36,040 nt of DNA from Thermobifida fusca NBRC 14071 = JCM 3263 (GTDB taxonomy: Bacteria; Actinomycetota; Actinomycetes; Streptosporangiales; Streptosporangiaceae): the NCBI RefSeq assembly GCF_001592045.1, contig NZ_BCWB01000053.1:1-36040 (forward strand). The letters run 5' to 3'. Positions 3,606 through 32,684 of this stretch are shown piece after piece; position 1 is the first letter of the stretch, and every line of letters begins with the position of its first letter. A model generated the notes under the pieces. The model did no database searches. It was given only the letters and a program-made list of their open reading frames with translations, and had not been told where the DNA came from. The position numbers were made by a program, and so were the translations under genes.

Positions 3606-3925
3606 GCGGAATGGGCGACGACGAAGAGGAATACCACGGCACCGTCACCGCTGTCTTCGACGAGACCGAAGTCACCGTCACCGCGCACCTCGCCGGGCAC
3701 TTCGACCCGCTCAGCGGAGAGTACCGGTGGACCGGACGGCTCGTCGCCGATCCGGAGCTGGACCGGCTCTTCCGCCAGGGCCAGCGCGCAGTCCTGCTGC
3801 GCACCCCGGAAGGCTATGCGGGCAAAGGAGAGCTCGTTGAAGTCAACGTCTGGGGCGGCTACCGGGTGCGGGGACGCGGCCGACCCCCCTTCGCGGTCCC
3901 TGAACTCAGCGCTGAAGAGATCTGA
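3602..3925 (+). CDS. DUF4873 domain-containing protein
   Basis: A 107-residue protein with the DUF4873 pattern: YHGTVTAVFDE, then LAGHFDPLSGEYRWTGRL, and a glycine/arginine-rich end GGYRVRGRGRPPF. It looks like a small beta-rich soluble protein with no signal peptide or membrane segment. The ATG overlaps the stop of the diiron oxygenase by four bases and has GGAGGAG upstream, so the two are one operon. DUF4873 modules are commonly found beside or fused to oxygenases in actinomycetes (recalled), which suggests a partner or substrate-handling role, but no biochemical function is established here. Confidence 0.8.
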   Translation: MSGMGDDEEEYHGTVTAVFDETEVTVTAHLAGHFDPLSGEYRWTGRLVADPELDRLFRQGQRAVLLRTPEGYAGKGELVEVNVWGGYRVRGRGRPPFAVPELSAEEI

Positions 3926-30596: not shown

Positions 30597-31079
30597 TTGA
30601 GCGAGAACACTATTCGGCTCCACCCCGGCGACATCGCCCCTGACTTCACGTTGAACAGTGCTTCCGGGGCTTCCGTGACTCTCAGCGAAGTGCTCAAAGA
30701 TCACGACCGGGTGGTGGTGTACTTCTACCCGGCAGCGATGACCCCGGGATGCACCACCCAAGCGTGCGACTTCCGCGACAACCTCCACGACTTCAACAAG
30801 GCAGGGCTGACCGTCTTGGGTATCTCCCCCGACTCGCTGACCCGGCTGGCCAAGTTCGCCGAGCAGGAAGGTCTGACCTTCCCGTTGCTCAGCGACCCCG
30901 ACCGCTCGGTGATGACCTCCTACGGAGCTTTCGGCGAGAAGAAGAACTACGGCCGAATCGTGCAAGGCGTGATCCGCTCCACCTTCGTCATCTCCGCTGG
31001 ACGCACCGTGGAGCGGGCCTACTATAATGTGCGGGCCACTGGACACGTCGAGCGGCTCAAGCGTGACCTGGGCCTTTAG
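30597..31079 (+). CDS. bcp: Thioredoxin-dependent peroxiredoxin (BCP/PrxQ type)
   Basis: A 160-residue cytoplasmic thiol peroxidase that reduces hydrogen peroxide and organic peroxides. The start DIAPDFTLNSASG and the active site YFYPAAMTPGCTTQACDFRD show the peroxidatic Cys (PGCT) and the resolving Cys five residues later, the atypical 2-Cys PrxQ arrangement; the usual K in YPKDxTPGC is Ala-Ala-Met here. STFVISAGRTVERAYYNVRATGH completes the fold. The start is TTG with GAGGAG six bases upstream. It is a single gene with an inverted repeat in its promoter region, and a tRNA gene follows 178 bases downstream. Confidence 0.93.
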   Translation: MSENTIRLHPGDIAPDFTLNSASGASVTLSEVLKDHDRVVVYFYPAAMTPGCTTQACDFRDNLHDFNKAGLTVLGISPDSLTRLAKFAEQEGLTFPLLSDPDRSVMTSYGAFGEKKNYGRIVQGVIRSTFVISAGRTVERAYYNVRATGHVERLKRDLGL

Positions 31080-31257: not shown

Positions 31258-31333
31258 GGGGCCGTAGCCCAACGGCAGAGGCGGCGGCTTTAGGTGCCGT
31301 GCAGTGCGGGTTCGAATCCCGCCGGCCCTACCA
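31258..31333 (+). tRNA. tRNA with anticodon UAG (nominal Leu, but class I shape)
   Basis: A complete 76-base cloverleaf can be folded by eye. The acceptor GGGGCCG/CGGCCCT is 7 bp with a terminal G-U. The D arm is GCC/GGC with a GG-containing loop. The anticodon stem GCGGC/GCCGT holds the loop TTTAGGT, and the T arm GCGGG-TTCGAAT-CCCGC is perfect. The discriminator is A73 and the CCA is encoded. The anticodon 34-36 is UAG, reading the leucine codon CUA, and the loop is the same as in E. coli tRNA-Leu(UAG). However, the variable region is only five bases (GCAGT), whereas leucine tRNAs are class II with a long variable arm. Its amino acid is therefore uncertain. Confidence 0.88.
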
Positions 31334-31340
31334 CAGAAAA

Positions 31341-31391
31341 ACACTGGCCGGAGAGAAGCGGAGAGGATCTCCGTCTTCCTCCGGCCAGTGT
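31341..31391. terminator. Compound hairpin after the tRNA gene
   Basis: ACACTGGCCGGAG (31341-31353) pairs with CTCCGGCCAGTGT-like sequence ending at 31391 (12-13 bp), and the loop holds an inner hairpin CGGAG/CTCCG (31359-31373). It lies eight bases after the tRNA CCA and 34 bases before the end of the convergent kinase gene, so it can end both transcripts. Confidence 0.75.
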
Positions 31392-31424: not shown

Positions 31425-32684
31425 TCAGGTGCGGAACACCAGAGCCCACAAGACGACAGAGAGCAAGAGCAGGACGAACAGCCCCACTCCCGCAACGATC
31501 ACCGCCTGCTTCTTCCGGCTCCGCTTACTGCGGTGCTTACCGGAACTGGTCAAACCCAGTGCGTCGGTCGACTCGCGGATCGCGGTAAGCAGCGCGCTCA
31601 CCGACTCTGGACGGTGCCGTTGCAGGGCATCGGAGACGTGGCTGACCTGTTCCTGCAAGTTGGTGCGGAGGACTTCGGCACCGGCCCGGAAATGGTCGAC
31701 CGCGGAAAGCTTCTCGCGCTCCTGCTGGCGGCGCACCGCTTCAGCCATCCGCGCCGCGGTCTCCGGACTGGTCTCCGGGGCCCACGGGGCCAGCGAAGCG
31801 ATCCGCAGCATCGCGGTGGCGCTCTCCGCCGTCAGCCTCTCGTTAGGGTCGACCTTGAGCAGCCCCGCCAGGACCGGGGCCAGCGGCCCCGCGTTAGCGG
31901 CAGGCGGAGGCTCCTCCACGTCGTCGCCGCGCAGAATCGCGATGTAGCCCTTGCGGCCGTACGGAGGGTGCCCTTCCACCGCTGCATACAGGGTGGCGCC
32001 CAAAGACCACAGGTCCGAGGCCGGTCCCACCGGGCCCGCTTTAGCCCGCTCCGGGGGCAGATACGACGGCGAGCCGATGATCCGTCCAGAGCTGCTGAGC
32101 GCAGACTCGCCGGTCCACGCCGCAAGCCCGAAGTCCGTCAACACGACCCGGCCGTCCTCGCTGATCATGACGTTCTCGGGCTTGACGTCCCGATGCACGA
32201 TGCCCTCATCGTGTGCGGCCTTGAGCGCACTGATCAGTTGAAGGCCGATCTCAGCCACCCTGGGATACGGCAGTGGCCCCGCGATGTCGATAATCTCGGC
32301 GAGCGTCCGCGCCTCGACCAGTTCCATCACGATCCACGGCCGCCCGTCCTCGTTGACCACATCCAGAACGGTGACCACGTTGGGGTGGCTCAGCCGTCCC
32401 GCTACCCGAGCCTCGCGGGTGGTTCGGCGGAGCAACGAGTTCCGTTCATCCTCGGTCACGTCGTCCGGGAGACGCAGCTCCTTGATCGCGACCTCACGGT
32501 CGAGGACAAGGTCCGTGGCACGCCACACCGTACCGACCCCACCGCGGCCGATGGGCTCGCGCAGCACGTAACGGCCAGCCAGTACGCGCTCACTGCCGCT
32601 GGCCTGGCCGTCAACTGTGACAGAAGGCCGTCGGCCGGTGACGTCGGCTTTCGGCCGCTCTGTTGGAGGCTGTTCTATGGACAC
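31425..32684 (-). CDS. Membrane Ser/Thr protein kinase (PknB-like) without sensor domain
   Basis: A 419-residue Hanks-type kinase. The catalytic domain (about 38-300) has GRGGVGTVW, Lys68 (VAIKEL), the catalytic loop HRDVKPEN (Asp166), DFG Asp184, and SYLPPERA for APE. A charged juxtamembrane stretch ends in KHRSKRSRKK before one membrane helix (about 393-416). Only three residues follow, so there is no extracellular PASTA or other sensor. The start is GTG without its own ribosome site, four bases after the stop of a 7-codon ORF that has a strong site, so translation is probably coupled to that ORF. No phosphatase or FHA gene is adjacent. Substrates are unknown. Confidence 0.92.
   Translation of the reverse strand: MSIEQPPTERPKADVTGRRPSVTVDGQASGSERVLAGRYVLREPIGRGGVGTVWRATDLVLDREVAIKELRLPDDVTEDERNSLLRRTTREARVAGRLSHPNVVTVLDVVNEDGRPWIVMELVEARTLAEIIDIAGPLPYPRVAEIGLQLISALKAAHDEGIVHRDVKPENVMISEDGRVVLTDFGLAAWTGESALSSSGRIIGSPSYLPPERAKAGPVGPASDLWSLGATLYAAVEGHPPYGRKGYIAILRGDDVEEPPPAANAGPLAPVLAGLLKVDPNERLTAESATAMLRIASLAPWAPETSPETAARMAEAVRRQQEREKLSAVDHFRAGAEVLRTNLQEQVSHVSDALQRHRPESVSALLTAIRESTDALGLTSSGKHRSKRSRKKQAVIVAGVGLFVLLLLSVVLWALVFRT

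Follow-up and report, generated by a model that had tools for sequence, protein, structure and literature searches.

The window considered here, that is the whole stretch of 36,040 nucleotides (nt) analysed from contig NZ_BCWB01000053.1 of Thermobifida fusca NBRC 14071 = JCM 3263, contains a transfer RNA (tRNA) gene with the leucine anticodon UAG and a variable region of 5 nt, to be set against the 15–17 nt arms of the class II leucine tRNAs in the same genome. Comparison of sequences makes it very probable that its product works as a housekeeping leucine tRNA with the class I shape, charged by leucyl-tRNA synthetase (LeuRS) and reading CUA. The original prediction had offered three options: a leucine tRNA of unusual shape, a tRNA that misreads CUA because a different synthetase charges it, and a tRNA used outside ordinary translation. 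The first is strongly supported and for the other two no support was found. The first is favoured because this is the sole UAG tRNA found in the genome, because it carries the leucine identity set, because it occupies a locus that elsewhere holds a class II UAG gene, and because CUA falls mostly at leucine positions.

ARAGORN and Rfam agree on a single tRNA in the window, at 31258-31333 on the plus strand, labelled tRNA-Leu(TAG) by ARAGORN; the RF00005 match covers 31258-31330 with 55.1 bits (E 2.2e-9). Its parts are as follows.

31258..31333, plus strand: class I-shaped tRNA-Leu(UAG) gene, CCA encoded (ARAGORN, Rfam RF00005 and the model R1 described below)
31267..31282, plus strand: D arm with leucine-type signature, comprising a stem of 3 base pairs (bp), C13/A22 mismatch, A14, A15 (31272), G18G19, A20a (31277), G21 and A22 (position table)
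31291..31293, plus strand: anticodon UAG, predicted to read CUA, starting at position 34 of the gene (ARAGORN)
31301..31305, plus strand: variable region GCAGU, 5 nt, with U48 at 31305 (position table)
31306..31322, plus strand: T arm with perfect 5-bp stem and loop UUCGAAU (Rfam, cloverleaf)
31330..31333, plus strand: discriminator A73 and encoded CCA (sequence, cloverleaf)

The acceptor stem has 7 bp with a G1-U72 wobble, the D stem 3 bp, the anticodon stem 5 bp with a G27-U43 wobble, and the anticodon loop is UUUAGGU. Thus the complete cloverleaf with perfect T arm, CCA, A73, UAG and a five-base variable region, as first noted, is borne out by ARAGORN, Rfam and the cloverleaf. The variable region falls short of the 10 nt or more of a class II arm, and the acceptor and T stems of 7 and 5 bp differ from the 8/4 or 9/3 arm lengths of allo-tRNAs. 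The bases that would make the D-loop to T-loop contacts, G18:U55, G19-C56 and U54:A58, are all present. Against shuffles the folding energy was not distinctive (z −0.82).

What in such a molecule would a synthetase recognize as leucine-specific? Passages of a 2023 review (PMC9976931) give the identity of Escherichia coli tRNA-Leu as A73, A15-U48, G18G19, A20a and the contacts between D and T loops, name A14 as an element in human mitochondrial tRNA-Leu, and relate that leucylation did not correlate with the sequence or folding of the long arm in E. coli, armless variants staying active. Every listed base (A73, A14, A15-U48, G18G19, A20a) is present in the window tRNA. The full set of A73, A15:U48, N20-A20a-G21-A22 and a 3-bp D stem occurs in five of the genome's 52 tRNAs, and all five are leucine tRNAs, two of class I and three of class II shape.

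The genome itself (3.64 Mb, listed as 100% complete) yields 52 RF00005 matches, all of which were read. The first check proposed with the original prediction was whether a normal class II tRNA-Leu(UAG) exists elsewhere in it: none was found among the 52, where the window tRNA is the only one with UAG, and a class II UAG pattern gave 0 matches. The leucine isoacceptors are thus UAG and UAA in class I shape and CAG, CAA and GAG in class II shape. Among the matches listed there is a single bacterial LeuRS over the family cut-off, in an 835-residue frame scoring 963 bits with its neighbours, and no second LeuRS over that cut-off among those listed by score. A special or second LeuRS for the class I tRNAs was considered and dropped, the genome having one over that cut-off.

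Two models were built, R1 from class I and R2 from class II leucine tRNAs, identical sequences having been removed before alignment to leave 57 and 31, respectively. The rows of the class I alignment that come from loci beside bcp (see below) were found without any D-arm pattern. In the 57 class I sequences 99.4% of 1139 paired cells are kept and both sides of the pair have changed at 17 of the 20 pairs; none of 500 shuffles of the alignment reaches the paired percentage or the covariation score, and one reaches 17 pairs. The compensatory changes for which an alignment with relatives had been proposed are therefore there. A73 is invariant (57 of 57), and pair 3:70, G3-C70 in the window tRNA, is GC in 31, CG in 25 and UA in one, with no G-U. 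Scored on the genome's own tRNAs, R1 gives 88.9 bits to the window tRNA and 75.6 to tRNA-Leu(UAA), both members of its training set, and at most 62.5 to the rest; R2 finds three matches in the genome, the class II leucine tRNAs with 85.1–92.2 bits, likewise in its training set, and gives the window tRNA 58.0, the highest of the others.

The gene's neighbours, named by reading of their proteins, and the intervening hairpin are:

30597..31079, plus strand: bcp-like thiol peroxidase gene, upstream neighbour of the tRNA
31341..31391, plus strand: strong hairpin between the tRNA and the convergent kinase gene (folding with flanks)
31425-32684, minus strand: Ser/Thr kinase gene, convergent, downstream of the tRNA

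The bcp-like and kinase genes keep their order in related loci. The best 80 of at least 542 bcp loci were fetched from named genomes, and in 46 of these a tRNA-Leu(UAG) lies within 800 nt downstream of bcp on the same strand; in 10 others it lies at another place in the locus, and none is seen in 24. Of the 46, 27 are class II (e.g. in Brevibacterium, several Nocardioides and Actinomadura flavalba) and 19 are class I, these being 16 from Nocardiopsis and Streptomonospora (L040-L055), two from Nocardioides and one from Catellatospora. It follows that the class I gene occupies the place that a class II gene has elsewhere. All 16 Nocardiopsis and Streptomonospora loci have the class I gene in the same position, which, together with the covariation among the 57 sequences, argues that the window tRNA is not a product of chance. 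Near relatives are not uniform, since a locus labelled Nocardiopsaceae bacterium (L093) has a class II tRNA-Leu(UAG) beside bcp. The hairpin (−42.7 kcal/mol, z −7.93, none of 200 shuffles equally stable when folded with flanks) is possibly a transcription terminator, though it is without a U run; scans for promoters and for terminators gave 0 sites each.

How widespread is this shape? The D-arm pattern matched 133 of the 150 genomes of the window's family, and the 40 class I genes read from its matches include all five leucine anticodons. Genome counts with R1 and R2 are of matches listed under stricter filters, of which samples were read as tRNAs. Among the matches listed R1 has at least one in at least 148 of the 150 family genomes (G005 and G017 are without) and R2 likewise in at least 148 (G295 and G367 are without). 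For the sum of the two, 98 family genomes were chosen on completeness of at least 99% alone, the other 52 being below this; class I and class II leucine matches, among those listed, total five in 63 of the 98 and fewer than five in one. Two or more class I matches are listed for all 98 and exactly two class II matches for 67; in each of six family genomes that were read the class II pair is GAG plus CAG, and class I tRNAs would there serve UAG, UAA and CAA. Beyond the family, at least 221 of 246 genomes of the class have an R1 match among those listed. Twenty high-scoring ones from other families, which lie near the top of the match list with weaker ones such as most of family f20 outside the sample, were read as UAG (nine), UAA (nine), CAA (one) and, by ARAGORN, Phe(AAA) (one). 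In the phylum at least 37 of 119 genomes are matched, among those listed, 27 of them outside the class; 20 of these matches were read, 19 as leucine tRNAs and one labelled Phe(AAA), and in some the D stem differs in sequence although the loop keeps the signature. The two Phe(AAA) calls, with loop CTTAAAA, are probably to be read as leucine UAA. The statement, offered at the outset as unverified, that similar genes occur in other actinomycetes proves correct from bcp loci, D-arm pattern, R1 matches and genes read alike.

The pattern searches miss tRNAs with other D or T loops. The class I UAG pattern occurs in 27 of the 246 class genomes, including 18 of the 22 from the window's own family (G006, G178, G197 and G256 are without). 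Its matches with other variable loops number six in family f20 and one in f19 (G169). Four f20 genomes (G129, G160, G208 and G258) have class I-length UAG-loop matches with variable loop TTTAGGTCCGGTGTGTCGTGGG and no match to the class II UAG pattern; the matches to the latter pattern include some that were read as a different tRNA (the TTTAGGCAAGG type).

Some further features of the family's leucine system deserve mention. The genome's own tRNA-Leu(UAA) (L039, G000:C43:36565-36638) has the anticodon loop CCTAAAA, with C33 in place of the near-universal U33, and among class I genes read in the family C33 is found in six of 11 UAA rows and three of four GAG rows. Tandem class I tRNA-Leu(GAG) and tRNA-Leu(CAG) genes, 83-84 nt apart, are present in G365 (contig C1; L129, L130) and G359 (contig C13; L124, L125), genomes that also have two class II leucine matches among those listed. 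In G026-G028, G031, G036 and G040 the match to LeuRS breaks near model position 142, in the manner of an insertion; G014, G025 and G005 each have one split and one unsplit match, adjoining each other in G025. No link between LeuRS type and tRNA shape was seen, because G006, which has a class II UAG pattern match, has an unsplit LeuRS of the same kind as the window's genome.

Relatives of the window tRNA are also carried by viruses. They occur in 60 phage records, the first listed being Thermobifida phage P318 (92.2% over 64 nt), where an unannotated class I tRNA-Leu(UAG) (L460, 2997-3070) lies directly upstream of the terminase small subunit gene. Seven plasmid records also have a match. Viral contigs (IMG/VR) were searched with a 19-letter D-arm motif that contains neither the anticodon nor positions 48 and 73, giving at least 120 loci. 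All 110 ARAGORN calls that hold the motif, among the loci listed, are leucine tRNAs (UAA 43, UAG 39, CAA 23, GAG 2, CAG 2, AAG 1), with A73 in 108 and U48 in 109 of them; 11 loci had no call. The control was the D arm of ordinary class I tRNAs, for which 80 of 120 loci were used: none of 70 calls is leucine (Lys 18, Thr 14, Asn 10, Trp 7 and others), and 15 loci had no call. Therefore the D arm tells leucine identity, and no other single argument against charging by a different synthetase is as strong as this viral result. Six of 80 viral loci (L214, L224, L225, L231, L257 and L278) have the motif and the 5′ acceptor strand with no tRNA called; they are possibly attachment sites or tRNA fragments. 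Pseudomonas phage XD2 (L461) has 19 tRNA genes in an unannotated 4-kb stretch, including short-variable-loop leucine tRNAs with CAA and UAG.

Which amino acid is actually wanted at CUA was approached by aligning genes of the window, and genes from genomes and bcp loci that carry a class I UAG gene, to homologues, with the homologues' own CUA and UUA residues left out. The codon is seldom used: 0.87 per 1000 over 14 genes of the window and 0.86 in the larger set. When repeated columns were collapsed by hand to 25 distinct ones, leucine was the consensus at 18; the genome's own columns gave leucine at three of three, and for comparison leucine is the consensus at 3888 of 4440 CUG sites.

Several results weigh against a leucine tRNA serving CUA in place of the class II form and are best gathered here. 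The seven remaining CUA columns have isoleucine (three), valine (two), lysine (one) or glutamine (one) as consensus. Before collapsing, the 37 sites with enough data divided into leucine 20, isoleucine 13, valine 2, lysine 1 and glutamine 1, 11 of the 13 isoleucine sites being one column common to 11 related loci. UUA offered only two sites, with phenylalanine 7 to leucine 5 and isoleucine 11 to leucine 8, so leucine was the consensus at neither. A73 with A15:U48 alone occurs also in three lysine tRNAs of the genome, and among the viral calls two are without A73 and one without U48. The invariance of the D arm is partly a matter of selection, because the pattern that brought in most family rows itself prescribes part of it. 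More than five leucine matches are listed for 34 of the 98 family genomes, not all of them read. Lastly, a tree of 63 core tRNA positions places class I and class II leucine tRNAs on one side of a split whose support is 0.0, for which reason it was not used for descent.

The alternative with most life in it concerns origin rather than function. The class I UAG gene may have arisen from the class II gene in place, the arm being lost and the D stem reshaped, and not by replacement from a phage or from the cell's own UAA gene. This is possible, though we incline away from it. The shape differs between lineages but the position beside bcp does not, class I being found in the Nocardiopsis, Streptomonospora, Nocardioides and Catellatospora loci counted above, and outside the anticodon and variable region identity reaches 0.73 to class II leucine tRNAs versus 0.67 to other tRNAs of the genome; the means, however, overlap (0.62 over 28 for class II leucine, 0.67 for one cysteine tRNA), the unsupported split in the core tree lends no help, and the acceptor and anticodon stems differ from those of the aligned class II UAG genes. 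Moreover, there are class I UAA genes in other families and class I leucine genes in viruses, so that donors for a replacement are at hand. Passages of PMC10865867 describe tRNA-dependent lysogeny: integration disrupts a tRNA gene of the host, and a tRNA brought by the phage makes good the loss. Phages can therefore supply essential host tRNAs.

With regard to function, charging by another synthetase, with insertion of another amino acid at CUA, has a precedent: some yeast mitochondria have a tRNA-Thr(UAG) or tRNA-Ala(UAG) that likewise pairs with CUA, as set out in passages of PMC7609411. Two more points speak for it: most other tRNAs have the class I shape too, and seven of the 25 CUA columns have a consensus other than leucine. 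The features those passages associate with the reassigned tRNAs, an 8-nt anticodon loop or G3:U70, are both absent from the window tRNA. None of the 57 aligned sequences has the alanine mark G3:U70, and their invariant A73 leaves no place for the G73 that with a long arm would mark a serine tRNA. The D-arm motif goes with leucine anticodons of both codon boxes, which have only A35 in common; leucine is the commonest consensus at CUA columns; and class I plus class II leucine matches, among those listed, most often sum to five. We regard such misreading as very improbable. Lower still we place a pseudogene, or a gene lately acquired from a phage and idle in the host, for which the phage relatives, such as that of P318, might be invoked; against it stand the intact stems, the strong covariation across the family, the locus kept in 16 of 16 Nocardiopsis and Streptomonospora cases and the want of any other UAG tRNA found in the genome. 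Use chiefly outside the ribosome, such as donating its aminoacyl group in the making of peptidoglycan or antibiotics, is hardly credible for the sole UAG tRNA found in a genome, lying in a conserved gene order and of a structural type that carries all five leucine anticodons, and no supporting point was found for it, the genome not having been searched for enzymes that use aminoacyl-tRNA. All three were rejected on these counter-points.

There remains the housekeeping leucine tRNA, and how it would work can be sketched. The bacterial-type LeuRS would charge it with leucine, reading A73 and the corner formed by D and T loops (the A15-U48 pair and A20a) and not the long arm. In translation the UAG anticodon would decode CUA and possibly other CUN codons by wobble. 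The class I leucine family here would supply UAA too, and in relatives often CAA, with GAG and CAG mostly staying class II. We infer that the gene is transcribed; a phage tRNA, conversion by a class I UAA gene and in-place loss of the arm are all possible routes by which the class II gene was replaced.

How does this compare with what has been described? With bacterial class II tRNA-Leu the window tRNA shares A73, A14, A15-U48, G18G19, A20a-G21-A22, the 3-bp D stem and, for UAG, the locus beside bcp; in addition to the arm, it differs in having A9, C12-G23 and C13 where class II has mostly G9, G12-C23 and G13. It looks like a tRNA-Leu with its arm gone and a core of class I type. Phage class I leucine tRNAs (Thermobifida phage P318, Streptomyces and Mycobacterium phages, IMG/VR) have the same D-arm signature, leucine anticodons and mostly A73 with U48; they are auxiliary viral genes. 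To our knowledge none has been known as a host's only source of an anticodon. In its pertinent passages the 2023 review already cited (PMC9976931) has tRNA-Leu keeping the long arm everywhere except in animal mitochondria, whose armless tRNA-Leu is charged by LeuRS with A73 and A14 as main signals. That case is organellar and, in humans, loosely folded; the window tRNA is chromosomal, a GC-rich regular cloverleaf on a bacterial contig with bcp-like and kinase neighbours. One sentence in PMC6582537 mentions a tRNA-Leu(TAG) with short variable loop, by description of the same kind, among clustered tRNA genes in strains of the Mycobacterium mucogenicum clade; there it is an extra copy beside a normal class II gene in a cluster of phage origin according to its authors, whereas the window tRNA is the only UAG tRNA found. 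For Mycobacterium tuberculosis a passage of PMC11541572 on long variable loops singles out, with the word ‘especially’, tRNA-Leu-2, 3 and 5, and in a passage of PMC8450103 the authors of tRNAscan-SE take a missing long arm as reason to doubt a leucine or serine call. No systematic account of short-armed bacterial tRNA-Leu was found in the open-licence PubMed Central literature, subscription papers and preprints being outside that scope.

Judged by sequence, class I leucine tRNAs are a large, little-noticed family in actinobacteria and phages. Tentatively, and a little short of an even judgement, they may be a distinct old lineage of phages and Actinomycetota that has displaced class II leucine tRNAs one gene after another across the class: broadly for UAA, in several families for UAG and CAA, and in single lineages for GAG and CAG. 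If so, free-living bacteria could do without the long arm, which has been taken as a fixed mark of tRNA-Leu. Phages would then be the carriers, and a possible advantage would lie in evading factors that recognize long-armed tRNAs.

For CUA and UUA the only leucine tRNAs found in this genome are short-armed, and among the genes read in its family short-armed tRNAs stand for CUA, UUA and often for the CUU/CUC, CUG or UUG readers. With such tRNAs in the genome and the family, and R1 matches in at least 221 of the 246 genomes of the class, two old questions, which features LeuRS in fact recognizes and what purpose the long arm serves, therefore become testable in natural material. The class I signature is useful for tRNA annotation, and natural class I leucine tRNAs are on offer for genetic-code engineering. 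There is a hint, too, that tRNA genes of the kind found in phages may come to serve the core decoding of a host.
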